NCBI GenBank assembly: GCA_021808405.1
Contig: JAKBBQ010000009.1
Location: 1-33,174 of the forward strand
Source of the DNA: Pseudomonadota bacterium
GTDB lineage: Bacteria > Pseudomonadota > Gammaproteobacteria > Burkholderiales > Burkholderiaceae_C
Direction of reading: 5' to 3'
DNA length: 33,174 bases
Shown: positions 17,029 to 33,174 of the stretch, piece after piece
Layout of the letters: the number at the start of each line of letters is the position of its first letter
Position numbering within the stretch: position 1 is the stretch's first letter
Translations under genes and position numbers: made by a program
The notes under the pieces: model-generated
What the model was told of the DNA's origin: nothing
What the model saw: the letters and a program-made list of their open reading frames with translations, nothing else
Database searches by the model: none

Positions 17029-17057
17029 GGGCGCGGCGCGGTTCAGGAGCGAGGACG

Positions 17058-18323: not shown

Positions 18324-18373
18324 GCGTCAGGCCAGCGGCAGCGTCACCCCTCATCGGCCAAGGAGCGAAGCAA

Positions 18374-19945
18374 GTGGGAAGCGGATCCGACCACAAGAGC
18401 ATGGAGAGCGCCGACGCCTATGCGCGTCTGCACGAGGAGTACCGCGCCAGGCGCGAGCAGGCGCTGGCGATGGGCGGCGAGGCCAAGCTGCAGGCGCGCC
18501 GCGAGCGCGGCCTGCTCAACGCCCGCGAGCGCATCGAGCGGCTGGTCGACGCCGGCAGTTTCATCGAATCCGGGCTGTTCGCCACCTCGGTGGTCGCGCG
18601 GGACCGGCAGCGCACCCCGGGCGACGGCAAGGTCGTCGGCTATGCGCGGCTGGACGGTCGCGAGATCGCCGTGGTGTCCAACGACTTCACGGTCATGGGG
18701 GCCTCGAGCAGCGCGACCAACGGCAGGAAGATCGCGCAGATGAAGCGGGTGGCCACGCAACGCGGGCTGCCGATGGTGTTCCTGGGCGAATCCTCGGGGG
18801 CGCGCATGCCCGACACCATGGGCTCGCGGGGCATGGGCAGCCTGCTGGGCAACGATCCGACGCAGTACCAGCGCATGCGCGAGACGCCGTGGGCAGCGGC
18901 CGTGCTGGGCTACTGCTACGGCTCGTCGAGCTGGTACAGCGTACTGGCCGACTTCATGGTCATGCGCAAGGGCGCGATCATGGCCGTTTCGAGCCCGCGG
19001 CTGGTGTCGCTGGCAGTCAAGGAGCAGATCGATCCCGAGGAACTCGGTGGCTGGCGCCTGCACGCCGAGGTCACGGGTTTCGCCGATGCCGTCGTGGACA
19101 CCGACGACGAGGCGCTGCAGGCGGTCCGGCGCTTCCTGAGCTACCTGCCCAGCCACCACAACGAGGCGCCGCCGGTGCATCCGGTGCCGGCCGGCTCCGG
19201 CGAGGGCATGGACGACATCGTCCATCTGCTGCCTGCCAACCGCACCCAGGTCTACGACGTGCGCAAGGTGGTGCGAACCATCTTCGACCGCGACAGCGTG
19301 CTCGAGCTCAAGCCGCGCTTCGGCAAGGTCGCGATGACCGCGCTCGCCCGGCTCGACGGGCGCACGGTGGGGGTGATCGCCAACAACCCGCTGTACAAGG
19401 GAGGCGCGCTGGACACCGAGGCCTGCGAGAAGATCACCGGCTTCATCGTGATGTGCGATTCCTTCAACATCCCGCTGGTGATGTTCGTCGATACCCCGGG
19501 CTTTGTCATCGGGCTGGACGCCGAGCGCAAGCGTGCGCCGGGTCGCATCATGAACTTCATGAACGCGCTGGCGCTGGTGACCGTGCCCAAGCTGTCGGTC
19601 ATCCTGCGCAAGAGCTACGGCCAGGCCTACCTGAACATGGGCGGCGGGCGCAATACCGACGAGGTCGCGGCCTGGCCGACGGCCGAGGTCAGCTTCATGA
19701 CTCCGCAGTACGCGGTGGAGATCGTGCACGGCCTGACCCCGGGGGATCCTGGCTTCGACGCGGCGCTGCAGCAGATGGAACTGGACAACAGCGTCTACGA
19801 CATCGCCTCGCTGTACGCGGTGCAGAGCGTGATCCTGCCGCAGCACACCCGCAGCTACCTGATCCGTATGCTCGAGGTGCATCGGCTGCGGCTGAACAAC
19901 GGGGTCGGCCAGCACCTGATGCGTACCTGGCCTGCCACCTATTGA
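18374..19945 (+). CDS. Acyl-CoA carboxylase carboxyltransferase subunit 1 (divergent)
   Basis: Carboxyltransferase of the PccB/AccD5 type, 523 residues: transfers CO2 from carboxybiotin to an acyl-CoA. Both crotonase-like halves are present. The N-terminal half is unusual: the oxyanion-hole segment normally DSGGAR is ESSGAR (139-144), and the normally GPCAGGA stretch reads GYCYGSSSW (179-187). The C-terminal half is more typical ([51 protein letters not shown]). Start: GTG at 18374, with AGGAG at 18361-18365; an ATG at 18401 is the alternative. The biotin carboxylase starts 12 bases downstream. It could be a carboxylase for an unusual acyl-CoA, or a partly catalytic partner of the second carboxyltransferase at 23041-24621. 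Confidence 0.9.
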   Translation: MGSGSDHKSMESADAYARLHEEYRARREQALAMGGEAKLQARRERGLLNARERIERLVDAGSFIESGLFATSVVARDRQRTPGDGKVVGYARLDGREIAVVSNDFTVMGASSSATNGRKIAQMKRVATQRGLPMVFLGESSGARMPDTMGSRGMGSLLGNDPTQYQRMRETPWAAAVLGYCYGSSSWYSVLADFMVMRKGAIMAVSSPRLVSLAVKEQIDPEELGGWRLHAEVTGFADAVVDTDDEALQAVRRFLSYLPSHHNEAPPVHPVPAGSGEGMDDIVHLLPANRTQVYDVRKVVRTIFDRDSVLELKPRFGKVAMTALARLDGRTVGVIANNPLYKGGALDTEACEKITGFIVMCDSFNIPLVMFVDTPGFVIGLDAERKRAPGRIMNFMNALALVTVPKLSVILRKSYGQAYLNMGGGRNTDEVAAWPTAEVSFMTPQYAVEIVHGLTPGDPGFDAALQQMELDNSVYDIASLYAVQSVILPQHTRSYLIRMLEVHRLRLNNGVGQHLMRTWPATY

Positions 19946-19957
19946 AGCGATCGATCC

Positions 19958-21298
19958 ATGTTCCACAAAGTCCTGGTGGCCAATCGCGGCGCGGTCGCGG
20001 CCCGGGTGCTGCGCACCCTGGCGCGCATGGGAATCGAGTCGGTGGCCGTCTATTCGGAGGCCGACGCCGGCGCGCCCTACCTCGCCGACGCCGGCCAGAC
20101 CTACTGCATCGGCGCTGCGCCGGCGCGCGAGAGCTACCTCAACCAGCAGGCGCTGCTCGATGTCGTGCGCCGCTCGGGCGCCGACGGCGTGCATCCGGGC
20201 TACGGCTTCCTTTCCGAGAATCCCGAATTCGCGAGTCGGGTGGAGCAGGCCGGGGCGCGCTTCATCGGCCCTTCGGCCCGGTGGCTGGAGGCGATGGGCC
20301 ACAAGACTCGCGCGCGCGAACTCGCCGCCCGCTACGGCCTGCCGGTCGGGCAGGGCTCGCCGGTGCTCGGCGACGACCCGCGGCAGATGCAGGAGTACGC
20401 CCGCAGCATCGGCTTTCCGCTGCTGGTCAAGCCGGCCGGAGGCGGCGGCGGCATCGGCATGCTGGTCGCGCGCGACGAGGGGCAGCTGCAGGCCAGCGTC
20501 GAGCGCGCCCGCTCGATGGCGCTGCGCGGCTTCGCCAACGGCGACGTCTACCTCGAGAAGTACCTGGAGCGGCCGCGCCACGTGGAGTTCCAGCTGCTGG
20601 GCGACCGCCACGGCCAGGTGCGCCACCTGTTCGACCGCGATTGCTCGGTGCAGCGCAGGCACCAGAAGGTGCTCGAGGAGGCCTGCGCGCCGCGCGTCGA
20701 CCGCGAGCGGGTGCACGCGCTGGCCGAGCAGATCGCCGCGACCTTCGCCAGCATGGGCTACGACAACATCGGCACCGTCGAAATGCTCATGGGCGCCGAC
20801 GGCAGCTTCAGCTTCCTGGAAACGAATACCCGGCTGCAGGTGGAACACGGCGTGACCGAGGAGGTCACCGGCCTCGACCTGGTGGCCGCGCAGATCCGCT
20901 CGGCCGCCGGGCAGGCGCTGGGCGACATCCTGCCGCCCGAGCTGCGGGTCGACGGCCACGCGATCGAGGCCAGGGTGTATGCCGAGGACTCGCGCCGCTT
21001 CCTGCCTTCGCCCGGCACGCTGAGCGCCTTCAGGCCGCCGCGGCAGCCGGGAATCCGCATCGAGACCGGCTATGCGCAAGGGCGCGAAGTGACCACGCAT
21101 TACGACCCGATGCTGGCCAAGGTGATCGCCCATGCGCCGACGCGCGAGGCGGCGATCGACCTGCTGCGCGACGCGTTGCGCGAGTTCGACATCGCGGGCG
21201 TGAAGACCAACCTGGCCGCCCTGGACCAGGTGCTGTCGTCGAGCGCGTTCCGCGAAGGCGACGTGCACACGGGACTGTTGTCCGAATTGATTCGATGA
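19958..21298 (+). CDS. Biotin carboxylase subunit of acyl-CoA carboxylase
   Basis: ATP-grasp enzyme that carboxylates biotin with bicarbonate and ATP, 446 residues, the size of a stand-alone AccC rather than a fused alpha subunit. N-terminal KVLVANRGAVAARVLRT, HPGYGFLSENPEFA, the ATP-binding glycine loop KPAGGGGGIGM, RDCSVQRRHQKVLEE and EARVYAED are all in order. Small departures from the consensus: GHKTRAR instead of GDKxxAR, and ETNTRLQVEHGVTE where EMNTR and EHPVTE are usual. No biotinyl domain is attached; the separate carrier gene follows after 24 bases. One carboxylase would have to serve both carboxyltransferases in the operon. Confidence 0.95.
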   Translation: MFHKVLVANRGAVAARVLRTLARMGIESVAVYSEADAGAPYLADAGQTYCIGAAPARESYLNQQALLDVVRRSGADGVHPGYGFLSENPEFASRVEQAGARFIGPSARWLEAMGHKTRARELAARYGLPVGQGSPVLGDDPRQMQEYARSIGFPLLVKPAGGGGGIGMLVARDEGQLQASVERARSMALRGFANGDVYLEKYLERPRHVEFQLLGDRHGQVRHLFDRDCSVQRRHQKVLEEACAPRVDRERVHALAEQIAATFASMGYDNIGTVEMLMGADGSFSFLETNTRLQVEHGVTEEVTGLDLVAAQIRSAAGQALGDILPPELRVDGHAIEARVYAEDSRRFLPSPGTLSAFRPPRQPGIRIETGYAQGREVTTHYDPMLAKVIAHAPTREAAIDLLRDALREFDIAGVKTNLAALDQVLSSSAFREGDVHTGLLSELIR

Positions 21299-21322
21299 AC
21301 CGCTTGGGAGGAAGGCAATCCA

Positions 21323-21544
21323 ATGGCACGCTATGAACTGAAGTCCGAGGTCACCGGCTCGGTGTGGAAGATCCTCAAGGCCGTCGGGGACGCGGCGGAA
21401 GAGGGGGAGACGCTGATGATCCTCGAGTCGATGAAGATGGAAATCCCGGTGATCTCCGAGGACGGCGGCAGCATCGTCGAGGTGCGCGTCGCCGAGGGGG
21501 CGGCCGTGAAGGAAGGCGACGTCCTGCTGGTCATCGAGGACTAG
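21323..21544 (+). CDS. Minimal biotin carboxyl carrier protein
   Basis: Biotinyl/lipoyl-type carrier domain of only 73 residues, without the Pro/Ala-rich N-terminal linker of AccB. The biotinylation motif ESMKME places biotin on Lys38, flanked by Met on both sides as the biotin ligase requires. GDAAEEGETLMI and GGSIVEVRVAEGAAVKEGDVLLVIE are the two mirrored half-barrels. It carries carboxybiotin between the biotin carboxylase encoded just upstream and the carboxyltransferases. GGGAGGAAGG precedes the ATG at 21323. Its small size and free-standing state resemble the carrier subunits of some actinobacterial and clostridial carboxylase/decarboxylase complexes. Confidence 0.95.
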   Translation: MARYELKSEVTGSVWKILKAVGDAAEEGETLMILESMKMEIPVISEDGGSIVEVRVAEGAAVKEGDVLLVIED

Positions 21545-21641
21545 CCGAAGGGAGGGTCGGCAAGGCGCGGCAGCCTGGCAGCAGTCTGTTCGTGGATGAA
21601 CACCAACCAAAGGCACATACAAAAGCTTCGGGAGACAAACC

Positions 21642-22886
21642 ATGGCAGTAACCCCCAACACCGACTACGCGGCGCAGCCGGCCCAGCGCAATCGCTGGAC
21701 CGTGGCATGGCTGTTGTTCGTGATCACCATCATCAACTACGCGGACCGCGGCGTGCTGGGTGTCGTCGCGCCGGTCCTGATCAAGACCTTCCACCTGAGC
21801 ATCAAGGAGTTCGGCATCATCGCCTCGGGCTTCGGCTGGGGCTACGTGCTGCTGGTGTTCCTCGGCGGCGGCATCGTGTCGCTGCTCGGCCCCAAGCGGA
21901 CCTTCATCGCTTCGTCGGTGCTGTGGTCGATCACCGTGATGCTGATGGCGGCGGCCAACGGCTTCTCCAGCCTGCTCGGGCTGCGCATCCTGTTCGGAGC
22001 CAGCGAGGGGGTGGCCTTCCCCAGCGGCTCGCAGCTCATCGGCAACTGGTTTCCCGCCAAGGAGCACGGCCGGGCCGCCACGCTGATGGGCGCGGGCATT
22101 CCGCTGGGCTCGCTGCTCATCATCCCGGTCGCGGTCTGGCTGACCTCGGCGTACGGCTGGCAGGCGCCGTTCATCCTGCTGGGTGTCGTCGGCATCGTGT
22201 GGGCGGTCCTGTGCAAGATCTACATCACCGACAAGCCGGAGCAGGGCGCGCCGGCGGCCGGGCGCGCGCAGGCGGGCGAGGCGGTGCACTGGAGCCGCAT
22301 CGTCGGCAGCCGCACGCTGTGGCTGACCGGGCTGGCGTTCTTCTCGTCGGCCTACGTGCTGTACTTCCTGCTGGCCTTCCTCCCGACCTACCTGGTGAAG
22401 GAACGGCACATGGAGTTCTCCCACATCGCCTACTTCGGCTCGCTGCCGTGGATCTTCATGACCATCGGCGCGCTGGCCTCGGGGCCGATTTCCGACTGGG
22501 TCTACAGGAAGACCGACAACCTGCGCTGGGGGCGTACCTACCTGGCGGGTGGCTGCCTGCTGGTGACCGGGCTGATCATCGGCATGACCCTGGTGGCCAC
22601 GACCACCCTGGAGATCGTCCTGTTGATCAGCGTGGCCAGCCTGATCAACTTCACGGCCAACCCGATCTTCTTCGCCATTCCGGTCGATGCCTGCCCGAGC
22701 AATGGCGGAGCCGCGTCGAGCCTGGTGACCGGGATCGGCTCGCTGGCCGGAATCGTCGCGCCGCTGTTCACCGGCTTCATCGTCAGCGCCACCGGATCGT
22801 TCTACTACGCCTTCGCGCTGGTATCGATCCTGCCGATCGTGTTCGGCGCGCTGCTGATCGTCGCCTGCGATCCGCGCAAGCTGTGA
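21642..22886 (+). CDS. MFS transporter, anion:cation symporter (ACS) type
   Basis: Major facilitator of 414 residues with about twelve membrane segments and a central loop near 200-220. The opening FVITIINYADRGVLGVVAP matches the ACS-family motif INYxDRxxLsxAAP of hexuronate, galactonate, tartrate and phthalate carriers. GASEGVAFPSGSQLIGNWFPAKEHGRA is the family's second signature. It should import an organic anion with protons. GGAG (21631-21634) precedes the ATG at 21642, 97 bases after the carrier-protein gene. Being inside the carboxylase operon, it probably takes up the acid that CoA transferase 1 activates. The substrate is not predictable beyond an organic acid. Confidence 0.93.
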   Translation: MAVTPNTDYAAQPAQRNRWTVAWLLFVITIINYADRGVLGVVAPVLIKTFHLSIKEFGIIASGFGWGYVLLVFLGGGIVSLLGPKRTFIASSVLWSITVMLMAAANGFSSLLGLRILFGASEGVAFPSGSQLIGNWFPAKEHGRAATLMGAGIPLGSLLIIPVAVWLTSAYGWQAPFILLGVVGIVWAVLCKIYITDKPEQGAPAAGRAQAGEAVHWSRIVGSRTLWLTGLAFFSSAYVLYFLLAFLPTYLVKERHMEFSHIAYFGSLPWIFMTIGALASGPISDWVYRKTDNLRWGRTYLAGGCLLVTGLIIGMTLVATTTLEIVLLISVASLINFTANPIFFAIPVDACPSNGGAASSLVTGIGSLAGIVAPLFTGFIVSATGSFYYAFALVSILPIVFGALLIVACDPRKL

Positions 22887-22926
22887 GTCGGCTCGACGGC
22901 GCGGCGCAAGCGGCTTGAAGCCCCGC

Positions 22927-22994
22927 GGGTCGCGCGTTCTCGCGCGGCCCGGGAGGCGGCCCGGCGCGACGGTCCGGCCCGCGAGGCGGCCCGG
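22927..22994. repeat. Hairpin and 12-base direct repeat inside operon
   Basis: The 154-base gap between the MFS gene and carboxyltransferase 2 holds a 10-bp hairpin with one G-T pair (22927-22936 with 22941-22950, loop TTCT) and a direct repeat GAGGCGGCCCGG at 22953-22964 and 22983-22994. It may attenuate transcription or stabilise the upstream message. Confidence 0.5.
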
Positions 22995-23040
22995 GGCGCG
23001 GGGAGTCATCGAAGCAACCGATTGGAGAGGACAGCACAGC

Positions 23041-24621
23041 ATGAGTGGCACGAGCGGCGAGAACTGGCAGGCCGAGGTCGACGAGATCGAGCAACGGCGA
23101 CGTTGGGCAGCGGAGCTGGGCGGCGCGGCGGCGGTGGACAAGCACCACGCCCAGGGGCGCCTGAGCGTCCGCGAGCGGGTCGATCGCCTGCTCGACGCGG
23201 GTTCCTTCCGCGAGGTCGGGTCGCTGGCCGGCCACGGCAGCTATGTCGACGGGCGCCTGCAGGGGGTGACCCCGGCGCCTTATGTCTGCGGCCTGGGGCA
23301 GATCGACGGGCGGCCGGTGGCGGTCGGCGGCGAGGACTTCACCGTGCGGGGCGGCACCAGCTGGGGCGGCGACCGCCGCAAGGGCGGCCAGGGCGGCTTT
23401 GTCGAGGACCTGGCCTACGAATACCGCATCCCGCTGGTCAACCTGATCGATGGCGCCGGCGGCACCGTGACCTCGGCCAGGCGGCGCGGCCACACGGTCT
23501 TTCCCGGAGTCGACGGCTTCGAGCGCTCGGTCGAACTGCTGGGGGTCGTTCCGGTGGTCAGCGCCGTCATGGGCACGGCGGCCGGTGGGCCGGCGGGCCG
23601 CGCGATCCTCTCCCACTGGTCGGTGATGGTCAAGGACTCGAGCCAGATCTTCGCCGCCGGCCCGCCGGTGGTCGAGCGCTCGCTGGGCCAGGTGGTGACC
23701 AAGGAGCAGCTGGGCGGGGCGCACATGGCGGTCGACGTCGCGGGCACGGTGGACAATGTCGCGCCCAGCGAGGACAAGTGCTTCGAGTCGATCCGCCGCT
23801 TCCTCGGCTACCTGCCGCAGAACGTCTACGAACTGCCGCCCAGCGTGCGTTGCGAGGACCCGCTGGACCGGCGCGAGGACGAGCTGTTGCGCATCGTTCC
23901 GCGCAACCGCCGCCAGCCCTACAACATGCGCAGGCTGATCGAGCTGGTCGTCGACCGCGGCTCGGTATTCGAGCTGCAGCCGAGCTTCGGCAAGGCGCTG
24001 ATCACCGCGTTCGCGCGCCTGAACGGCAGGACCGTCGGGGTGATCGCCAACAATCCCATGATCGCCGGCGGGGCGATGGACGTGAAGGCGGCGCGCAAGC
24101 AAAGCCACTTCATCGAACTATGCGACACTTTCCACGTGCCGCTGGTGTTCCTGGTCGACGTGCCGGGGTTCATGGTCGGCATGGACGCCGAGGCCGCCGC
24201 CACGCTGCGCGAGGGCATGCGAACCGTGTACGTGGGCGCGCAGGCCACGGTGCCGATGCTCACCGTGGTGATCCGCAAGTGCTATGGGATGGCTGGAATG
24301 GGAACCACCAGCAAGAACGGATTGAACCTGAAGATCGCATGGCCGTCGGCCGAATGGGGCTCGCTGCCGGTCGAGGGCGGCGTGGCCGCGGCGTTCAAGC
24401 GCGAGATCCAGAGCGCGGCCGACCCCGCCGCGCGCCAGCGCGAGCTCGAAGCCGAACTGCGCGCTCTGGCCTCTCCGCTGCGCACGGCCGAGGCCTTCGG
24501 CGTGGAGGACGTCATCGATCCGCGGGAGACCCGCGCCTACCTGTGCCGTTTCCTCGAGGCGATGCAAGGCCGGCTGAGGAGCGATGTCGGACCGAAATAC
24601 AAGACCGGCGTGAGGCCGTGA
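23041..24621 (+). CDS. Acyl-CoA carboxylase carboxyltransferase subunit 2
   Basis: Second carboxyltransferase of the PccB type, 526 residues, only distantly like the one at 18374-19945. It keeps a more normal N-terminal half: LIDGAGGTV (135-143) at the first oxyanion loop, GTAAGGPAG (178-186) where GPCAGGA is usual, then [18 protein letters not shown] and KEQLGGAHM. The C-terminal half has [44 protein letters not shown] and [27 protein letters not shown] at 23024-23030 supports the ATG at 23041. No second biotin carboxylase or carrier is present, so it must share those encoded upstream or form a mixed complex with carboxyltransferase 1. A role as a decarboxylase subunit is less likely without a sodium-pump partner. 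Confidence 0.9.
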
Positions 24622-24637
24622 ACCCGAGGAGCCGCCG

Positions 24638-25645
24638 ATGACCACCGTTTCCGTGATTCCCGTCGCCGCCGTGCGGCCGCGCAACGCAGGCACCGAGGCC
24701 GCGCAAGCCGCGACCCGCTGGCCGCTCGAGCGCGTCGAGGCGCTGTACGAACTGCCCTTCCTCGACCTGCTGTACCAGGCGCAGCAGGTGCATCGCGCCC
24801 ATTTCGATGCCAACCAGGTGCAGCTGTCGACCCTGCTGTCGATCAAGACCGGCGGCTGCGCCGAGGATTGCGGCTACTGCTCGCAATCGGCGCACCACGA
24901 CACCGGCCTGGCCGCCGGCAAGCTGATGGCGCTGGGCGAGGTGGTGGAGGCGGCGCGCGCGGCCCGCGAGCAGGGCGCGAGCCGCTTTTGCATGGGGGCG
25001 GCGTGGCGCGGCCTGAAGGACCGCGACCTCGACCGCGTGGCGGAGATGATCCGCGCGGTCAAGGACCTGGGGATGGAGAGCTGCGTGACCCTGGGCATGC
25101 TCAGCGCCGAGCAGGCGCAGGCGCTGAAGGGTGCCGGGCTGGACTACTACAACCACAACCTCGACACCTCCCCGGAGTACTACGGCTCGATCGTCAGCAC
25201 GCGCACCTACCAGGACCGCCTGGACACCCTGGCGCATGTTCGCGACGCCGGGATCCACGTCTGCTGCGGAGGCATCGTCGGCATGGGCGAGTCGCGGCGC
25301 CAGCGCGCCGACCTGGTCGCGCAACTGGCCAACCTCGACCCCTACCCCGAGTCGGTCCCGATCAACAACCTGGTCGCGGTCGAGGGGACTCCGCTGGAGC
25401 ACGCGAAGCCCATCGATCCCTTCGAGTTCGTGCGCACCGTCGCGGTGGCGCGCATCACCATGCCCAAGGCGATGGTCAGGCTGTCGGCGGGGCGCCAGCA
25501 GATGGACGATGCGCTGCAGGCGCTGTGCTTCGCAGCCGGGGCGAATTCGATCTTCTACGGCGACACCCTGCTGACCACCGGGAACCCCCAGGTGCAGCGC
25601 GATCGCGAACTGTTCGACCGCCTGGGCCTGCGCGCCTGCGGCTGA
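24638..25645 (+). CDS. Biotin synthase
   Basis: Radical SAM enzyme that inserts sulfur into dethiobiotin to make biotin, 335 residues, normal length. The [4Fe-4S]-binding CAEDCGYC (CxxxCxxC) is at about 74-81, followed by [38 protein letters not shown] and RLSAGR, all canonical BioB motifs including the residues around the auxiliary cluster. GAGGAG sits six bases before the ATG at 24638, and the gene starts 16 bases after carboxyltransferase 2, so it is surely cotranscribed with it. The usual partners bioF, bioA and bioD are absent. Its presence suggests the operon boosts biotin supply when the biotin enzyme is made. Confidence 0.97.
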
Positions 25646-25849: not shown

Positions 25850-25878
25850 TTGCCTCGGGCCAGGCGGCGAGCTATAAC
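25850..25878 (+). promoter_or_regulatory. Sigma-70 promoter of the IclR-led mutase operon
   Basis: TTGCCT (25850-25855), a 17-base spacer and TATAAC (25873-25878) give a good promoter; transcription should start near 25885, about 30 bases before the IclR start. Confidence 0.78.
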
Positions 25879-25890
25879 TCGTCTTAAATC

Positions 25891-25920
25891 ATGAAAAATT
25901 TTTCGAGATTTCGAAAATGA
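25891..25920 (+). other. Nine-codon leader frame overlapping the IclR start
   Basis: An ATG at 25891 opens MKNFSRFRK and stops at a TGA (25918-25920) that overlaps the IclR ATG in the ATGA arrangement used throughout this operon. No ribosome site is visible, but it lies only about six bases from the predicted transcript start, so near-leaderless translation is conceivable. It may be fortuitous. Confidence 0.25.
25893..25917. promoter_or_regulatory. Probable IclR autoregulatory operator
   Basis: A perfect inverted repeat TTTTCGA-GATT-TCGAAAA spans 25900-25917, and overlaps a second perfect palindrome GAAAAATTTTTC at 25893-25904. Together they sit just downstream of the predicted transcription start and touch the IclR start codon. 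IclR-family regulators commonly bind such short AT-rich palindromes near their own promoter. In this GC-rich region the patch stands out. Confidence 0.65.
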
Positions 25921-26648
25921 CAGCTCCCGACCGAACCTTGCGTGTGTTCGAGACCTTCGAGTCCGCGGTGCGTCCGCTGACCCTGAGCGAATTCGCCGAG
26001 GCCTCGGGAATGCCCATCAGCACCAGCCATGGCATCTTGCAGGCGCTGGTGCGCCGGGGCTACCTGTACCTGACGAGTTCGCGCAAGGACTTCTTCCCCA
26101 CGCGCCGGCTGTACGACATGGCGGCGAAGATCAACGCCCATGATCCTTTCCTGGAGCTGCTGACCCCGCGCCTGCGCGCGCTGCGGGACGCCACCCAGGA
26201 AACGGTCATCGTCGGCAAGCGCCAGGGCGAGACCATCGTGTACCTGGCGGTCCTCGAGGGCCCGCAACTGATCCGCTACAGCGCCAAGGCCGGGGACATC
26301 AAGCCGCTGTACTCGACATCCATCGGCAAGGCGCTGCTCAGCACCCTGTCCGCGTCCGCGCTGCGAGCCTGGGTCGCGCGCACCCAGTTGGCCGCCATCA
26401 CCGAGCACACCCTGACGTCGCGCGAAGGCCTGCAGCACGACATCGAGGAGGCCCGGCGCAAGGGCTACGCGGTCACGCGCGGCGAAAGCGTCGGCGACGT
26501 CTACGCGGTGGCGACTCCGGTGAGCGTCAACCACGATCTCCTGGGAATCGCCGTCGCAGGGCCCAAGCACAGGCTCGAGGGGGCGATCGAGCGCGCCGCG
26601 CAGCAACTGCTGGCGGTACGCGCCGACATCGAGGGAGGCCCTGCATGA
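25917..26648 (+). CDS. IclR-family transcription regulator
   Basis: Protein of 243 residues with an N-terminal winged helix (about 1-65; LTLSEFAEASGMPISTSHGILQALVRRGYL) and a C-terminal IclR effector domain (about 75-240; ETVIVGKRQGETIVYLAVLEG, YSTSIGKALLST, REGLQHDIEEARRKGYAVTRGE, AVATPV). These regulators bind small acids or aromatic compounds and control adjacent catabolic genes. It is first in the mutase operon, overlaps the crotonase gene by ATGA at 26645-26648, and so would be autoregulated along with it. No Shine-Dalgarno is clear before the ATG at 25917, which overlaps the operator palindrome. The effector is probably the imported acid or its CoA ester. Confidence 0.93.
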   Translation: MTAPDRTLRVFETFESAVRPLTLSEFAEASGMPISTSHGILQALVRRGYLYLTSSRKDFFPTRRLYDMAAKINAHDPFLELLTPRLRALRDATQETVIVGKRQGETIVYLAVLEGPQLIRYSAKAGDIKPLYSTSIGKALLSTLSASALRAWVARTQLAAITEHTLTSREGLQHDIEEARRKGYAVTRGESVGDVYAVATPVSVNHDLLGIAVAGPKHRLEGAIERAAQQLLAVRADIEGGPA

Positions 26649-27466
26649 GCGCGGGCCCCGACACCACTGCGCGGCGCGCGCCCGGGCAGGCGCCGGCGCC
26701 GATCGAGTCCGCGTGGCTCGACGGCGTACTGTGGCTGAGCATCCATCGACCCGAGCGGCGCAACGCCCTCAGCCTGGACTGCCTGGATGCGCTGCGCGAT
26801 GCGCTGCTGGCCTGCGATGCCCACGCCGAGCTCAAGCTGGTGGTGCTGCGCGGAAGCGGCGACAAGGCCTTCGCCGCAGGCGGCGACCTGCAGGAGTTCG
26901 ACGCGCTGCGCTCGGCGCGCGACGCCGAGGCGATTTTCGACCGCGCCGCGGCCGCGCTGGACGCGGTGCGCGCCTGTCCGGTCCCGGTGGTGGCCGCGCT
27001 CAATGGCGTGGCCCTGGGAGGCGGCGCGGAACTGGCGATGAGCTGCGATTACCGCATCGCCGCGCAGCATGCCCGCATCGGCTTCGTGCAGGCGAGCCTG
27101 GGCATCACCACCGGTTTCGGCGGCGGCGCCGCGGTGCTCCGGCGCCTGGGTCGCGCCGGCGCGATGCGCCTGCTGGCCCAGGCCAGGCTGTACTCGGCGG
27201 ACGAGGCGCTGCAACAAGGCCTGGTGGATCGCGTATGCGCGCCAGGCCAGAGCCTGGAGGACTGCGTGACCGAGTTCGCCGCCCCCTTCCTCGAACGCGC
27301 GCCGCACCTGGTGCGGGCGATCAAGCAACTGCTCGGCAGCGCGGCACCCGATGCCGGGCAGCGCGCGCAGGAGCGCGCGGCGTTCGCCGCGACCTGGGAA
27401 CACCCACTTCACTGGCAACTCCTGGCGGGAATGCAGCAGGCCAGGATGTCCAAGGAGAAACCATGA
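26645..27466 (+). CDS. Crotonase-family protein, possible acyl-malonyl-CoA decarboxylase
   Basis: Enoyl-CoA hydratase/isomerase-superfamily protein, 273 residues. The fold signatures are clear: HRPERRNALSL, oxyanion loop AFAAGGDLQEF, and GVALGGGAELAMSCDYRIA with Glu129 at the place of hydratase Glu144. At the place of the second catalytic Glu (Glu164 of rat hydratase, exactly 20 residues on) it has Gln149, in RIGFVQASLGITTGFGG. A true hydratase needs both glutamates. The FVxxxxGI pattern recalls ethylmalonyl-CoA decarboxylase (ECHDC1), as I remember that sequence. Together with the mutase, MeaB and CoA transferase genes, decarboxylation of a substituted malonyl-CoA (as by E. coli ScpB) is the best guess; an isomerase is possible. 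Confidence 0.88.
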   Translation: MSAGPDTTARRAPGQAPAPIESAWLDGVLWLSIHRPERRNALSLDCLDALRDALLACDAHAELKLVVLRGSGDKAFAAGGDLQEFDALRSARDAEAIFDRAAAALDAVRACPVPVVAALNGVALGGGAELAMSCDYRIAAQHARIGFVQASLGITTGFGGGAAVLRRLGRAGAMRLLAQARLYSADEALQQGLVDRVCAPGQSLEDCVTEFAAPFLERAPHLVRAIKQLLGSAAPDAGQRAQERAAFAATWEHPLHWQLLAGMQQARMSKEKP

Positions 27467-29076
27467 GTCTGGATCCACAAGCGGCGTGGACCCGATCCGG
27501 AGGCAGCACGCCGTCCGGGCTGGAGGTCCCGCTGGTGGCCACCCCGGCCGACGCGCACAACCCGCCGCAGCTGGGCGAGCCCGGACATTTCCCCTTCACC
27601 CGGGGCATCTTCCCCGACGGCTACCGCGGCCGTCTGTGGACCATGCGGCAGTACTCGGGATTCGGCACCGCCGAGGAGTCGAACCAGCGCTACCGCTTCC
27701 TGCTCGAGCAGGGCCAGACCGGGTTGTCGGTGGCGCTGGACCTGCCGACGCAGTGCGGGCTGGACCCTACCGATCCGATGGCGCGGCCGGAGATCGGCAA
27801 GGTCGGGGTATCGCTGTCCAACCTCGCCGAAATGGAGCTGCTGTTCGACGGCATCGACCTGGGTCGCATCTCGACCTCGTTCACCATCAACGGCACCGCG
27901 GCGATGATCTACGCGATGTACCTGGCCTGCGCCGACAAGCAGGGGGTGCCGCGCGACAAGCTGACCGGGACGATCCAGAACGACATCCTGAAGGAATACG
28001 TCGCGCGCGGTACCTGGATCTTCCCGGTACGGCCGTCGATGAGGCTGATCGCCGACAGCATCCTCTATTCGAACGACGTCTCCCCGCGTTTCAACCCGAT
28101 TTCCATCGCCGGCGCCCATATGCGCGACGCCGGTTGCACGGCTGTCGAGGAAATGGCCTACACCCTGGCCAACGGGCTGGCCTACGTCGATGCCGTGATG
28201 CAGCGCGGTGGCGATGTCGCCAGGTTCGCCAGGCGGCTGAGCTTCTTCTTCTACGTCCACATGGACCTGTTCGAGGAGGTCGCGAAATTCCGCGCCGGGC
28301 GCAGGCTGTGGGCGCAGCTGATCCGCGAGCGCTACCAGGTGGCCGACGAGCGGGCGCAGATGATGCGCTTCGGCGTGGTCTGCGGCGGCTCGTCGCTGAC
28401 CGCCGCCCAGCCCTACAACAACGTGGTGCGGGTGGCCATCGAGACCTGCGCGGCCGTTCTGGGCGGCGCGCAGTCGATCTTCACCTGCGCGTACGACGAG
28501 GCGTTCCAGATCCCCACCGAATTTTCCGCCGAACTGGCGTTGCGCACCCAGCAGGTCATCGCGTACGAGGCGGGGCTGGCGCGCAGCGTGGATCCGCTGG
28601 GCGGCTCGTACTACCTGGAGACACTGACCGATCGCAGCGAGGCAGCGATGCGCGAACTGATCGGCGAGATCGAGGCGTACGGCGGGGCGGTCAAGGCCAT
28701 CGAGGATGGCTGGCTGCAACTGCGCATCGCCCAGCGCGCGCTGCAGCGCAAGCGGCTCACCGATTCCGGCGAGCGCACCGTGGTCGGCCAGAACGCGTTT
28801 CGCCGCGAAGACCAGCAGGAGCAGCCCGGCGAGATCTTCCACCTCGACCCGACCGCCAGCTCGAAGGTGCTCGAGCGCCTGCAAAGGGTTCGCGACACGC
28901 GCGACCAGGCGGCGGTCGACAAGGCGCTGGCCGCGCTGGGCCGCGCGGCGGCCGACGAGCGCGACAACCTGATGCCCTGGCTGGTCGACTGCTGCCATGC
29001 CTACGCGACGGTCGGCGAAATGGTGGCCTGCCTGAAGCAGCCATGGGGCGAATTCGTGGAGCCGGTCAAGCTATGA
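27463..29076 (+). CDS. Adenosylcobalamin-dependent acyl-CoA mutase, large subunit
   Basis: Catalytic subunit (537 residues) of a split methylmalonyl-CoA-mutase-family enzyme, which moves the thioester group between neighbouring carbons by radical chemistry. Family motifs are intact: [39 protein letters not shown]. Against Propionibacterium methylmalonyl-CoA mutase, a constant offset of 25 gives Tyr64 (Tyr89), Gln172 (Gln197), Arg182 (Arg207) and His219 (His244), so the residues gripping the substrate carboxylate are kept. Isobutyryl-CoA mutase has Phe and Gln instead of Tyr and Arg. Ala218 replaces the usual Tyr243, and the later [16 protein letters not shown] differs from the typical TSGWSLTAQ. 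The B12 domain is in the next gene, overlapping by ATGA. AAGGAG precedes the ATG. Confidence 0.93.
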
Positions 29077-29495
29077 ACACCGAGGCGCAACCTTCCAGCC
29101 CGCCGCTGCGCGGCAAGCGCATCCTGATCGCCAAGCCCGGACTCGACGGACACGACATCGGCGCCAAGGTGATCGCGCTGGCGCTGCGCGACGCAGGAGC
29201 CAGCGTGATCTACACCGGGCTGCGCAAGAGCCCGGAACTCATCGCCCGCGTCGCGGTCGACGAGGACGTCGATGCCGTCGGCCTGTCGATCCTGTCGGGC
29301 AGCCACAACGACCTGGTCGCGGCCACGGTGGCCGAGCTGCGCGCGCGCGGCGCGGACGATATCGCGCTGTTCGTCGGCGGCACGATTCCGGCCGACGACC
29401 GCGCCAGCCTGCTGGCCGCCGGCGTGAAGGGCGTCTACACCAGCGAAATGCACCTCGACGAGGTCATCGGCCATATCGCCGAGGTCCTGCGATGA
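29073..29495 (+). CDS. Acyl-CoA mutase small subunit, B12-binding
   Basis: Cobalamin-binding subunit, 140 residues, equivalent to the C-terminal domain of methylmalonyl-CoA mutase. The DxHxxG motif is in AKPGLDGHDIGAK (Asp25, His27, Gly30); His27 ligates cobalt from below with the base-off cofactor. Downstream VDAVGLSILSGSHND and ALFVGGTIPADD complete the family's SxL and GG segments, which hold the cofactor's nucleotide tail. It starts in the stop codon of the large subunit gene, consistent with a fixed stoichiometry. The split layout occurs in isobutyryl- and 2-hydroxyisobutyryl-CoA mutases and in some archaeal and bacterial methylmalonyl-CoA mutases, so it does not by itself fix the substrate. 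Confidence 0.96.
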   Translation: MNTEAQPSSPPLRGKRILIAKPGLDGHDIGAKVIALALRDAGASVIYTGLRKSPELIARVAVDEDVDAVGLSILSGSHNDLVAATVAELRARGADDIALFVGGTIPADDRASLLAAGVKGVYTSEMHLDEVIGHIAEVLR

Positions 29496-29520
29496 GCGCG
29501 CGGTGTCCGGGGGATCCGGC

Positions 29521-30648
29521 ATGAGCGGACCGCTGCACGGAATCCGCGTGATCGAGGTCGGCCACATGCTGATGGGGCCGTATTGCGGAATGCTGCTGGC
29601 CGACCTCGGCGCCGAAGTGATCAAGATCGAGCCGGCGGCAGGCGATATCGCGCGTTCGATCGGCGGACTGCAGGTCGACGGCCACAACTGCTACTTCGCC
29701 AGCCTCAACCGCAACAAGCGCAGCGTGGTGCTCGACCTGGCCAGCGCCGACGGCCAGCAGGCGCTGGGGCGGCTGGCCGCGCAGGCGCACGCGCTGGTCA
29801 CCAACCTGCGCCCGTCGGCGATCCGCAAGCTCGGGCTGACCCACGACGCGCTGCGCCGGCACAACGAGCGCATCGTCTGCGTCGCGCTCACCGGATTCGG
29901 GCTCGACAGCCCGTATGCCGACCAGCCGGCCTACGACTATGTCGTGCAGGCGCTCACCGGGATCATGCACCTGACCGGCGAGCCCGGCGGCCCGCCGGTG
30001 AAGACCGGGTATTCGGCGGTGGACAACTCGGCCGGGATCATGGGCGCGCTGGGACTGCTGGCGAAAATCGTCGAGGGCCGCGGCGGGCAGGTCGACATCG
30101 CGATGTACGACGTCATGCTGTCGCAGATGAACTACCTGGCCAGCGCGACCCTCAACGGCGGCGAGGCGAGCCGGCGCTGCGCGATGTCCGCGCATCCGTA
30201 TATCGTTCCGGCCCAGTTGTTTCGCACCGCCGACGACTGGCTGGTGCTGTTCATCACCCACGACGACTTCTGGAAGATCTTCTGCGAGCGAGTAGGCCGG
30301 CCGCAGTGGCTCGGCGACGAGCGCTTCGCGACCATGCACGCGCGCAGCCGCAACCGCGAGACCGTGATCGGCGAACTCGCCGAGCTGTTCGCCCTGGGCA
30401 CGACCGCGCACTGGCTGGATCGGCTGGGCGGCAGCGGCATCGTCGTGTCGGGGCTGCAGACGCTCGAGCAGGCGCTGCACGGCGAGCAGGCGAAGGCCCG
30501 CGACATGGTCGTGGACATCGAACTGGCGCAGCACCGCCTGTCGCTGGTGGGCAATCCGATCAAGGTCGCCGGCACCACGACCGGCTACGCCGCGCCGCCG
30601 CGCCTGGGCGAGCACACGGCGCTGTACACAGGGCCGCACGAGACATGA
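29521..30648 (+). CDS. Class III CoA transferase (CaiB/BaiF family) 2
   Basis: Second CoA transferase of this fold in the window, 375 residues and clearly a different subgroup from the first. The opening GIRVIEVGHMLMGPYCGMLLADLGAEVIKIEP is diagnostic, NLRPSAIRKLGL and LTGFGLDSPYADQPAYDYVVQALTG follow, and the catalytic-type Asp168 is in YSAVDNSAG. Relatives move CoA among dicarboxylic acids such as succinate, itaconate, mesaconate and citramalate. GGGGG at 29509-29513 supports the ATG at 29521 over a GTG at 29503. Placed between the mutase and MeaB, it is the functional counterpart of E. coli ScpC, though that is a class I enzyme. It probably activates the acid imported by the TRAP system with CoA recovered from the product. 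Confidence 0.93.
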   Translation: MSGPLHGIRVIEVGHMLMGPYCGMLLADLGAEVIKIEPAAGDIARSIGGLQVDGHNCYFASLNRNKRSVVLDLASADGQQALGRLAAQAHALVTNLRPSAIRKLGLTHDALRRHNERIVCVALTGFGLDSPYADQPAYDYVVQALTGIMHLTGEPGGPPVKTGYSAVDNSAGIMGALGLLAKIVEGRGGQVDIAMYDVMLSQMNYLASATLNGGEASRRCAMSAHPYIVPAQLFRTADDWLVLFITHDDFWKIFCERVGRPQWLGDERFATMHARSRNRETVIGELAELFALGTTAHWLDRLGGSGIVVSGLQTLEQALHGEQAKARDMVVDIELAQHRLSLVGNPIKVAGTTTGYAAPPRLGEHTALYTGPHET

Positions 30649-31541
30649 CCACCAGCGCGCTCGCGCGCCGGGAGCTGGCGCGCCGTCTCACGCGCATCGG
30701 CCGCGCCAGCGTGGCGCAGTGCCTGCGCAGCGGGCTGGACGCGCGCCAGCTGCAGGCGGCGGCGTGCATCGGATTCACCGGCGCGCCGGGGGTCGGCAAG
30801 AGCACGCTGATCGCCCGCGTGGCGGCGCAGCGAGCGGGCAGCGGGCGCCGCCTCGCGGTGATCGCGATCGATCCATCCAGCCCGCGTACCGAGGGCGCGC
30901 TGCTGGGGGACCGCATCCGCATGGACGCGCTGCTGCAGTCGCAGGATGTGTTCATCCGTTCGCTGGCCAGCGGGCAGGCCACCGACGGCATGGCCGACAA
31001 CCTGGCCGAGGTGCTGGCCGCGGTCGGCGCCAGCGGCTTCGACGAGATGCTGCTCGAGACCGTCGGCGTCGGGCAGGTGGAATACGGCGCGCGGGCCCTG
31101 ATGGACACCGCGGTGCTGGTGCTCGCGCCGGGCAGCGGCGACCAGATCCAGGCGATGAAGGCGGGAACGCTGGAGACCGCCGACCTGCTGGTGGTCAACA
31201 AGGCCGACCAGCCGGGGGCCGCGCGCATGGCGCAGGACCTGCGCGGCGTCGTCGAGCTGCGGCGCCGCGCCGCGCACGACTGGCTGCCGCCGGTGCTGCA
31301 GCTGGCGGCCAGCGATGCGGCGTCGGTGCACGCGCTGTGCGAGGCCATCGACGCCCACGCCGCGTGGCGTGCCGGGCACGTCGACATGGAAAAGCTATCG
31401 CAGCAGCGCCTGCTGCTGCACGCCAAGGCATTGCTGCATCGCCGACTGGCCGAGGTCTCGGCCGAGCTCGACGCGCAGCAGCGCGCGCTGCCGCTTGCGG
31501 CGCTGGTCGAACTGCTGGCCCGGAGGCTGCAGGCTCCCTGA
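30645..31541 (+). CDS. MeaB/ArgK-family mutase chaperone GTPase
   Basis: G3E-family P-loop GTPase of 298 residues that protects B12 mutases and gates loading of adenosylcobalamin. Walker A GAPGVGKST (46-54), the IDPSSPRTEGALLGDRIRM segment, ETVGVGQVEYGA, LAPGSGDQIQAMKAG, and the guanine-specificity motif VNKAD are all typical of MeaB/ArgK (MMAA in humans). The C-terminal helical part is a bit short compared with about 330 residues. It overlaps CoA transferase 2 by ATGA (30645-30648). Its presence confirms that the adjacent mutase uses adenosylcobalamin and is the main reason for comparing this operon with E. coli sbm-argK. Confidence 0.95.
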   Translation: MTTSALARRELARRLTRIGRASVAQCLRSGLDARQLQAAACIGFTGAPGVGKSTLIARVAAQRAGSGRRLAVIAIDPSSPRTEGALLGDRIRMDALLQSQDVFIRSLASGQATDGMADNLAEVLAAVGASGFDEMLLETVGVGQVEYGARALMDTAVLVLAPGSGDQIQAMKAGTLETADLLVVNKADQPGAARMAQDLRGVVELRRRAAHDWLPPVLQLAASDAASVHALCEAIDAHAAWRAGHVDMEKLSQQRLLLHAKALLHRRLAEVSAELDAQQRALPLAALVELLARRLQAP

Positions 31542-31591
31542 GCCCAAGGCCGGCAAGTGCATCACGACAACACGACAACGAGGTGACGAAC

Positions 31592-32611
31592 ATGAAACGC
31601 AGAACCTATGCCCTGGGCCTGGCCGCCGCGACGCTGACGCTTGCCGGCATGACCGCAAGCGCCCAGGCGACGACGCTGAACCTGAAGATGGCGCATCAGT
31701 GGCCCGACGATTCATCGGACTACGTGGTGCAGACCGGCAAGCTGTTCGCCAAGGAAGTCGAGCAGAAGTCGCACGGCAGCATCCAGATCCACATCTTCCC
31801 TGCCGAGTCGCTGGTGAAGGCGCTGAACACCGGAGAAGCCTTGCGCACCGGAGCGGTCGACCTGGCGATCTACCCCTACATCTATTCGGGCGGCGCGATC
31901 CCGCAGATGAACCTGATCCTGCTGCCCGGCCTGTGGAAGACGGCCGCCGACGTCTACCGCTTCCGTCATTCGAAGCCCTGGCAGACGCTGGAGAAGGACG
32001 CCGAGAACTACGGCTTCAAGACGCTGTGCTGGATCCAGATATCGGGTGGGGTGGCCTCCAAGCCGCGGCCGATCAACCTGCCGTCGGATCTGAAGGGCCT
32101 GAAGGTCCGGGGCGCCGGCCGGATGATGGAAGCCGCCTTGCAGGCGGCCGGAGCGAGCACCGTGTCGATGGCCTCGTCGGAGACCTACAGCGCGATGCAG
32201 CTCGGCCTGCTCGACGGCCTGTGGACCTCGTCGGGAACCTTCGGCTCCTATCGCATCTACGAAGTCTCCAAGTACTACAACTCGCCGCAGAACTACAGCA
32301 TCTTCTACACCATCGAGCCGATCGCGATCAGCATGAAGACCTGGCGCAAGCTGACTCCGGCGCAGCAGAAGATCATGCTCGAAGTCGGCAAGAGCCTGGA
32401 GCACCAGGCCTATGTCGGCGCGAAGGCGGCCGACGCCCAGGTCGCCGACATGTTCGCCAAGCATGGGGCCAAGGTGCACGACATGACCCTCGGCGAATGG
32501 AAACAGTGGCAGGCACTGTTCCGCAAGGTCAGCTTCCCGATGTTCCGCAAGAGCGTGCCCGACGGCAAGCAGTTGCTGGACGAAAGCCTGGCGTTCTACG
32601 GCGACAAGTGA
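31592..32611 (+). CDS. TRAP transporter substrate-binding protein DctP
   Basis: Periplasmic solute receptor of a tripartite ATP-independent transporter, 339 residues. A Sec signal peptide (KRRTYALGLAAATLTLAGMTASAQA) is followed by LKMAHQWPDDSSDYV, the DctP N-terminal pattern. The conserved Arg that usually binds a substrate carboxylate lies in DLKGLKVRGAGRMMEAALQAAGAS, and SSETYSAMQLGLLDGLW is the typical hinge. TRAP systems import organic acids with a sodium gradient. GAGGTGA precedes the ATG at 31592, 50 bases after meaB, so it is probably cotranscribed. It most likely delivers the acid metabolised by the mutase operon. Confidence 0.93.
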   Translation: MKRRTYALGLAAATLTLAGMTASAQATTLNLKMAHQWPDDSSDYVVQTGKLFAKEVEQKSHGSIQIHIFPAESLVKALNTGEALRTGAVDLAIYPYIYSGGAIPQMNLILLPGLWKTAADVYRFRHSKPWQTLEKDAENYGFKTLCWIQISGGVASKPRPINLPSDLKGLKVRGAGRMMEAALQAAGASTVSMASSETYSAMQLGLLDGLWTSSGTFGSYRIYEVSKYYNSPQNYSIFYTIEPIAISMKTWRKLTPAQQKIMLEVGKSLEHQAYVGAKAADAQVADMFAKHGAKVHDMTLGEWKQWQALFRKVSFPMFRKSVPDGKQLLDESLAFYGDK

Positions 32612-32647
32612 ACCAGGCGCAGGTTGCGCTGGGCGCGGAGGCGTGCG

Positions 32648-33174
32648 ATGCGTAGATGCATGGATTGGCTGGTTCGCGGCGTCGATGGCCTGACGCAAGC
32701 GGTGGCGATCTCGGTCGGGCTCGCCGTGTTGTCGATGGTCGCGATCATCGTCTACGGGGTCGTCGCGCGGGAGGTGTTCCACCGCTCCGACATCTGGGTC
32801 ACCGCGACCACGACCTACATCATGGCCTACATCACCTTCGTCGGAAGCTGCACGCTGGCCTGGCGCAACCGGCATCTGCGGGTCGACGTGCTCAGCCATT
32901 TCGCAGGTGCCCGGCTGGGCAGGCCGCTGGACGCGGCCACCACGGCGATCGCCACGGTGGCCGCGCTCGTCATGGCCTGGCTGAGCGCGTCGTTCTGGCA
33001 CGACGCCTGGGCGACCGGCGAACAGGACTGGGGCATGTTTTCCATCCACCTGTGGATTCCCTACCTCAGCCTGCTGGTCGGCAGCATGCTGCTGGCTCTC
33101 ATCCTGGTGCTGCGCACCGTGCTGACCCTGCTGCCGCCGGCATGGGGAGGGCTGCCCGGCAGCGCGGACGCGCC
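32648..33174 (+). CDS. TRAP transporter small membrane subunit DctQ (partial)
   Basis: First 175 codons of the small four-helix membrane subunit; the frame is open to the window end. Hydrophobic stretches are near 17-38, 54-72, 96-112 and 133-160. The LxWRNRHLRVDVL segment (about 74-86) after the second helix and the WIPYLSLLVGSMLLAL segment match the DctQ family. GGAGG at 32636-32640 lies seven bases before the ATG at 32648. The large subunit DctM should follow outside the window. Confidence 0.9.
   Translation, partial: MRRCMDWLVRGVDGLTQAVAISVGLAVLSMVAIIVYGVVAREVFHRSDIWVTATTTYIMAYITFVGSCTLAWRNRHLRVDVLSHFAGARLGRPLDAATTAIATVAALVMAWLSASFWHDAWATGEQDWGMFSIHLWIPYLSLLVGSMLLALILVLRTVLTLLPPAWGGLPGSADA

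Follow-up and report, generated by a model that had tools for sequence, protein, structure and literature searches.

A conserved gene cassette built around a distinct clade of split B12-dependent acyl-CoA mutases, with a proposed role in the catabolism of substituted succinates

Results

An eight-gene unit in a Burkholderiaceae contig

The window analysed here is an entire contig of 33,174 bases (JAKBBQ010000009.1, C57 of a 396-contig genome) from a bacterium placed in the Burkholderiaceae. It carries eight genes, all on the + strand, for an IclR-family regulator, a crotonase-fold protein, the large (MutA) and B12-binding (MutB) subunits of a split mutase, a class III CoA-transferase (CaiB), a MeaB-type GTPase, and the receptor (DctP) and small permease (DctQ) of a TRAP transporter, the contig end falling inside DctQ. 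Pfam models assign each of the eight genes over cut-off (Table 1), and the gene set proposed in an initial annotation of this DNA is borne out in its order and strand. The same annotation took nearly every junction to be an ATGA overlap. This is true of the core, where four of the five junctions from IclR to MeaB overlap in this way, but not of the unit as a whole (4/7): gaps of 25, 50 and 36 bp separate MutB from CaiB, MeaB from DctP and DctP from DctQ, respectively. DctM would fall past the contig end; in Paraburkholderia it follows DctQ.

Table 1. Genes of the cassette and the adjoining transporter in the window.
Product	Position	Strand	Basis
IclR-family regulator, first gene of the unit in the contig	25917..26648	+	Pfam IclR_C and HTH_IclR over cut-off
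Crotonase-fold protein, probable substituted-malonyl-CoA decarboxylase	26645..27466	+	Pfam ECH_1; Glu144/Glu164 columns
Adenosylcobalamin (AdoCbl)-dependent acyl-CoA mutase, large (substrate-binding) subunit	27463..29076	+	Pfam MM_CoA_mutase (PF01642), 645.7 bits
B12-binding small subunit of the mutase	29073..29495	+	Pfam B12-binding (PF02310), 74.6 bits; DxHxxG motif
Class III (CaiB/BaiF) CoA-transferase	29521..30648	+	Pfam CoA_transf_3, 371.9 bits; Asp168
MeaB-type GTPase, probable B12 chaperone of the mutase	30645..31541	+	Pfam MeaB, 219.4 bits; P-loop Lys52
TRAP receptor DctP	31592..32611	+	Pfam DctP; nearest structure 4mco
TRAP small permease DctQ, cut by the contig end	32648..33174	+	Pfam DctQ

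The gene order recurs in 80 distinct loci

When 84,980 species genomes were scanned with two query mutases, that of the window and that of genome G045, 199 relatives came up, and the best 80 loci were analysed. The best segments are 71-84% identical to the query. Loci were picked by the patterns FFFYVHM or [FY]PFTRGIF, and conservation of those residues (including Y264, which is on our list of diagnostic positions) is partly by construction; position 243, discussed below, falls in neither pattern. Genes were called by our own script, so that start codons and overlap counts are approximate, and were clustered by single-linkage BLAST, the type of each group being assigned from one member or a few.

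Relative to the mutase, the small subunit lies at +1 in 80/80 loci, the crotonase at -1 in 75, CaiB at +2 in 72, and MeaB at +3 in 65 or at +2 in five (70 in total). Four-base overlaps join MutA to MutB in 58/80 loci, MutB to CaiB in 59/72, CaiB to MeaB in 45/65 and the crotonase to MutA in 26/75. The co-occurrence search called for in the initial annotation shows that the core order recurs, beyond chance, in 80 distinct loci, and that the gene set is a real, conserved cassette built on a so far undescribed clade of mutases.

Record titles place most hosts in the Burkholderiales and the alphaproteobacteria, with some gammaproteobacteria and a few bins labelled otherwise. Copies on plasmid records were found in Paraburkholderia, Diaphorobacter, Sulfitobacter and Marinobacter, and in a Marinobacter copy a cobalamin adenosyltransferase gene adjoins the unit. 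Membership of the mutase clade was set at E <= 1e-200 (best non-member 6.8e-159). At this threshold a clade mutase was found in 3/397 other sampled genomes of the phylum and 1/398 of the order (at most three candidates were scored per genome, and both counts may be low), and in none of the 27 other genomes of the genus. Crotonase matches at E <= 1e-40, counted regardless of a neighbouring mutase, occurred in 4/368 other genomes of the class. From its patchy distribution and plasmid copies, the cassette looks like an exchangeable module. In Bradyrhizobium manausense (L081, L089) two cassettes lie on the same contig, about 30 kb from each other: one is ABC-linked and lacks CaiB, the other is TRAP-linked and has it.

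The mutase clade keeps the carboxylate residues and carries Ala at position 243

We aligned the mutases of the window, the 80 loci and three plasmid copies (84 orthologs; 85 with G045) with E. coli Sbm, the methylmalonyl-CoA mutase (MCM)-like enzymes of Azospirillum and Ilyobacter, Paracoccus MeaA/Ecm, Methylibium HCM and the paralogs of the own genome. MCM numbering was transferred by a printed alignment to 1req, with the chain index taken as residue number minus one. The MCM active-site set, which we take as a whole to be Y89, Q197, R207, Y243 and H244 (PDB titles name Y89F and H244A mutants), is kept at four of its five positions: Y89, Q197, N198, R207 and H244 are present in 84/84 orthologs and likewise in G045, and position 243 is Ala in 85/85. 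Tyr stands at position 243 in 31/31 other rows that have the Tyr89/Arg207 pair. These rows do not make 31 independent cases: 22 of them are MCM-like proteins from relatives, and one pair of rows is identical. Over all 40 non-orthologous rows the residue is Tyr in 36, Gln in two and Cys in two (both Cys rows being one protein). The DxHxxG motif of the small subunit is found in 81/81 proteins (80 loci and the window).

In a phylogenetic tree, 17 sampled orthologs group in a single clade with full support (100/100; stem length 1.45). Sbm and 23 MCM-like rows form a separate clade, also supported 100/100, with the window mutase outside it, and HCM is set apart from the orthologs with the same support. 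Ecm (branch 4.42) and IcmF are long branches of unsure place; the ortholog clade separates from Ecm, and the order among the clades is unsettled. The window mutase is 44% identical to ScpA, and its subfamily carries no annotation beyond 'methylmalonyl-CoA mutase family protein'. The model of its large subunit (predicted TM-score, pTM, 0.85) best matches 4r3u (HCM) and human MCM. All together, the alignment supports a mutase that keeps the carboxylate residues yet is not an ordinary MCM at position 243. Ordinary MCM is disfavoured by residue 243 and, less strongly, by placement in the tree.

Other mutases came to light in these searches. In the own genome these are an HCM-type enzyme (C42), another unusual type (C16) and an IcmF, none of them in the MCM/Sbm clade. 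Its HCM-type enzyme (L005:1495-5992) has the HCM residues Ile89/Asp/Gln207, and similar ones occur in G014 and G023 of the genus. The other unusual type, with Leu89/Asn207/Gln243, lies with MutB and MeaB at L006:9926-12994 and L038:3522-6815; in Diaphorobacter it also has an AMP-binding protein and a branched-chain-type ABC transporter, and lies about 10 kb from the cassette. A cousin arrangement with a different active site occurs at L045:5173-13145, where a mutase with Asn89 and Cys243 is accompanied by MutB, MeaB, CaiB and IclR proteins (the last two 40% and 52% identical, respectively) and a distant DctP-like protein, with no match to the window crotonase within the 15 kb examined. The mutases of L041 and L042 have Tyr89/Arg207/Tyr243 but carry IAGGGGG where MCM has HCQTSGW.

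No clear epimerase accompanies the cassette

No methylmalonyl-CoA epimerase of the own genome scores over the curated cut-off (weak hits of 34.6 and 23.3 bits against 114.95), and Ilyobacter Mce, compared with the 1233 proteins of the 80 loci, gave one weak match only (22% identity, E 2e-4, in L124). In the E. coli sbm route an added epimerase was needed for propionate production from glucose (PMC5512728). These observations hint either that methylmalonyl-CoA is not what the cassette acts on or that its enzymes have matching stereochemistry.

The crotonase has lost the second hydratase glutamate

In 80 crotonases (75 loci, the window and four plasmid copies) the first hydratase glutamate (Glu144 column) is kept throughout, and the second (Glu164 column) is replaced by Gln in 73 and by His in seven. 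Nine other crotonases of the same loci, used as a control, have Glu in this column in four cases and Gln or His in none. E. coli YgfG has Pro there, and the window crotonase is 27% identical to ScpB. Human ECHDC1 presumably combines a crotonase fold with His in this column, as seven of the 80 do here; none of the 60 crotonase structures listed from the PDB was annotated ECHDC1. Loss of the second glutamate speaks against an ordinary hydratase and is in keeping with a decarboxylase, which we consider the probable function.

CoA transfer probably belongs to the function of the cassette

Asp168 of CaiB, which we take to be the catalytic aspartate of class III transferases, is present in 74/74 proteins, and the P-loop Lys52 of MeaB in 72/72. 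Among NCBIfam models, CaiB comes closest to succinate-glutarate and succinyl-CoA:mesaconate transferases, with both scores falling far short of the cut-off, and BLASTP finds no match between CaiB and ScpC at E <= 1. Together with the split mutase, this agrees with the view of the initial annotation that the four protein kinds of the sbm operon are assembled here from other parts. Among loci without CaiB, L064, L070 and L081 encode a class I transferase on the opposite strand, about 6 kb upstream of the crotonase; the one scanned, in L064, gives below-cut-off matches to butyryl-CoA:acetate and YgfH/ScpC models. In L056, CaiB is found at +4 instead. Replacement of CaiB by another fold suggests that CoA transfer is probably integral to what the cassette does, though in L064, L070 and L081 a gene that looks like an AMP-ligase adjoins the transferase gene.

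Regulator, uptake systems and flanking genes vary

In 27/80 loci an IclR relative is encoded upstream on the strand of the cassette, in 25 upstream and divergently, and in eight elsewhere; none was found in the other 20 within the stretch examined. The gene at +4 encodes a Bug receptor in 19/80 loci and DctP in nine. The Sulfitobacter cassette has a TAXI-type TRAP receptor, and that of Diaphorobacter a Bug receptor followed by an ABC receptor. TRAP genes adjoin the cassette in this contig, which has DctP and DctQ, but the TRAP coupling of the initial annotation is not supported as a general feature. We rejected TRAP uptake as an integral part of the cassette because receptors change between lineages; it is one uptake solution among several. 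Relatives of the window DctP, 62-74% identical, occupy the same place in L048-L051, L097 and L123. Its nearest structure is 4mco (TM-score 0.86 by query), whose bound ligand we take to be malonate; at only 34% identity to it, the receptor does not allow the substrate to be deduced. Arg173 is present in 10/10 receptors.

Within the stretches examined, neighbouring genes encode 2-oxoglutarate/iron (2OG/Fe) oxygenases in 15/80 loci, aldehyde dehydrogenases (ALDH) in 14, short-chain dehydrogenases/reductases (SDR) in 21, luciferase-like monooxygenases in six, FMO-like flavoproteins in five, a P450 in L075, and a sulfopyruvate-decarboxylase-like beta subunit (below cut-off) in ten. Pfam, run on four members of cluster 26, recognises FMO-like/pyridine-nucleotide flavoproteins. 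The oxygenases, dehydrogenases, monooxygenases and flavoproteins among these neighbours could make carboxylic acids from alkyl groups or ketones. None of the neighbours was seen next to the window cassette, where most genes before 21.6 kb were not scanned. In the alphaproteobacterial loci L077, L088, L096, L104 and L115 the genes flanking the cassette encode a 2OG/Fe oxygenase, a hydroxyisobutyrate-dehydrogenase-like protein and sulfopyruvate-decarboxylase-like alpha/beta proteins (typed from L096, below cut-off). A luciferase-like monooxygenase occurs in addition in L077 and L096, the latter of which also encodes a citryl-CoA-lyase-like protein.

In the window itself, the region 5' of the IclR unit (16297-25645) holds, by the look of the sequences, a GntR-like gene, a biotin-dependent carboxylase set, a BioB-like gene and a second CaiB-type transferase (33% identical to the CaiB at 29521), and by Pfam an MFS carrier and a second MmdA-like carboxyltransferase.

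Discussion

A proposed catabolic cassette for substituted succinates

With confidence barely better than even, we propose that the cassette is catabolic and converts a free substituted succinate into a shorter acyl-CoA and CO2, the substrate, the direction and the CoA donor being our inference. Since no single neighbouring pathway covers the loci, only a substrate class can be named, the leading one being a C5-C6 alkyl-substituted succinate, with methylsuccinate and 2,2-dimethylsuccinate as first candidates. As its family suggests, the class III transferase would load CoA onto the dicarboxylate; the donor would be an acyl-CoA, perhaps the one that the cassette itself produces. Once loaded by MeaB, the split AdoCbl mutase would then shift the thioester to the neighbouring carbon to give a substituted malonyl-CoA; its family and active-site residues were checked, and the substrate is a prediction. 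The Tyr89/Arg207 pair would hold the free carboxylate, and Ala in place of Tyr243 may make room for a substituent larger than that of methylmalonyl-CoA. From the lost hydratase glutamate and the gene linkage, the crotonase would decarboxylate this product to an acyl-CoA. IclR would sense a pathway acid, and uptake would be by whichever receptor adjoins the cassette in its host, TRAP in this contig.

Several observations weigh against this proposal. CaiB is missing at +2 in 8/80 loci and MeaB at +2 or +3 in 10/80, some of these being short contigs and others real variants, and a class I transferase gene was recognised in only three of the eight loci without CaiB at +2. In the PDB, CaiB is matched best by a protein annotated as a formyl-CoA transferase. 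Tyr243 is retained in HCM and IcmF, both of which act on branched substrates, and the role of Ala at this position cannot be deduced from them; nor are the clade-diagnostic positions significantly enriched in the barrel strands of the model (9/40, P = 0.14 against invariant positions). Loss of one hydratase glutamate falls short of proving decarboxylation, and the control of nine crotonases is small and divergent, with the first glutamate kept in only 2/9. Flanking genes vary by lineage, and no single upstream pathway indicates one substrate. Finally, the split mutase of Ilyobacter, which is probably an MCM and whose gene lies beside an annotated methylmalonyl-CoA epimerase, also falls outside the MCM/Sbm clade and keeps Tyr243, so that clade position alone neither settles the substrate nor excludes methylmalonyl-CoA. 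This result slightly lowers our confidence in a substituted succinate and slightly raises that in a plain Sbm-type cycle.

Such a cycle would run from succinate through succinyl-CoA and methylmalonyl-CoA to propionyl-CoA, with a class III transferase replacing the class I enzyme. The cassette has the same four activities as E. coli sbm, its mutase and crotonase resemble ScpA and ScpB, the carboxylate residues are conserved, and the Ilyobacter enzyme is a precedent outside the MCM/Sbm clade; but Ala243 in every ortholog, where MCM, Sbm and the Ilyobacter enzyme have Tyr, and the lack of a clear epimerase, which the E. coli route had to be given (PMC5512728), make it unlikely. The enzymes would equally fit entry at the other end, with a substituted malonate as the imported acid: the transferase would form R-malonyl-CoA, part of which the crotonase would decarboxylate and part of which the mutase would send to a succinyl-CoA for the tricarboxylic acid cycle. 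That 4mco is the nearest solved TRAP receptor speaks for this, yet the decarboxylase and the mutase would draw on the same intermediate, which would be strange within a single operon, the receptor is distant from 4mco, and other cassettes use Bug, TAXI or ABC receptors; we regard it as rather unlikely.

Two further readings concern single parts of the scheme. The crotonase may instead work on an unsaturated or thioester intermediate, as a hydratase, hydrolase or isomerase, leaving the mutase product to a fate other than decarboxylation by the crotonase. Its best NCBIfam and PDB matches are indeed enoyl-CoA hydratases and the first glutamate is always kept, but the second is gone in 80/80 and it is not evident what a hydratase would act on between a mutase and a CoA-transferase for saturated diacids, which leaves this quite improbable. 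The substrate could also be a functionalised succinate (hydroxy-, aryl-, sulfo- or carboxy-) rather than an alkylsuccinate, fed by the oxygenase, SDR and ALDH neighbours counted above, with the luciferase-like monooxygenases and sulfopyruvate-decarboxylase-like subunits alongside. These neighbours are lineage-specific, absent from most stretches and from the immediate surroundings of the window cassette, and may belong to adjacent pathways; the SDR and ALDH clusters are moreover broad. We consider a functionalised succinate very improbable.

A bolder version of the alkylsuccinate proposal is that the mutase has a new activity on succinyl-CoA with a fully substituted carbon next to the thioester, for instance turning 2,2-dimethylsuccinyl-CoA into isopropylmalonyl-CoA, from which the crotonase would make isovaleryl-CoA for ordinary leucine breakdown. 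This would agree with an active site made larger by Y243A and with the monooxygenases (P450, FMO-like and luciferase-like) encoded near some copies, although we hold it to be a long shot. If true, the cassette would be a general aerobic bypass of the gem-dimethyl or branched carbons that block beta-oxidation, left from terpenoid, isoprenoid or pantoate-like compounds.

Relation to known systems

The closest known arrangement is the sbm operon of E. coli (scpABC-argK), which likewise joins a B12 mutase, a MeaB-type GTPase, a crotonase-fold decarboxylase (a predicted role here) and a CoA-transferase. The cassette differs in its split mutase of another clade with Ala243, in a class III instead of a class I (ScpC-type) transferase, in a divergent crotonase with Gln or His where YgfG has Pro, and in the added IclR and receptor genes. 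By residue 243, clade and transferase class, we regard it as Sbm-like in logic and not a member of the Sbm group.

With Ecm/MeaA the mutase shares the Y89/R207 carboxylate residues, the PTQ motif and the logic of substituted succinyl- and malonyl-CoA; Paracoccus Ecm is, however, one polypeptide of 652 residues that keeps Tyr243 on its long separate branch, and the ethylmalonyl-CoA pathway builds carbon chains, without decarboxylation. HCM has the same split architecture and the closest solved structure, but the Methylibium enzyme carries Ile89, Asp in the 116 column and Gln207 where the cassette has Tyr, Ala and Arg in 84/84, and its gene adjoins an AMP-binding (ligase-type) gene and no CoA-transferase.

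Three further comparisons rest on published descriptions. ActD/MatB of actinonin and matlystatin were proposed to act on a hexylmalonyl-/pentylsuccinyl-CoA pair (PMC5719088); that system is biosynthetic, comes with a carboxylase-reductase and an epimerase, and is likened here by description, not by sequence. Methylsuccinate is an environmental substrate with another known route, the methylsuccinate branch of the itaconate cluster (Cupriavidus, Pseudomonas), in which a CoA-transferase also acts on a methyl-branched succinate, mainly in Betaproteobacteria; this branch uses an isomerase and an acyl-CoA dehydrogenase, and its scheme, as the abstract gives it, includes no B12 mutase (PMC12290011). 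The animal enzyme ECHDC1, likened by description and not by sequence, decarboxylates ethyl- or methylmalonyl-CoA (PMC8473548). A literature search found no description of the cassette, which is weak evidence, as subscription papers were mostly outside its reach.

Significance

Few carbon-skeleton acyl-CoA mutases are known, and new ones have opened catabolic or biosynthetic routes. Here a whole mutase subfamily comes with a fixed five-gene cassette across alpha-, beta- and gammaproteobacteria and large plasmids, and its partner genes suggest the chemistry: CoA transfer, rearrangement and decarboxylation. Ala in place of Tyr243 provides a diagnostic residue, and both the subfamily and the question of its substrate are directly testable with a few CoA esters.

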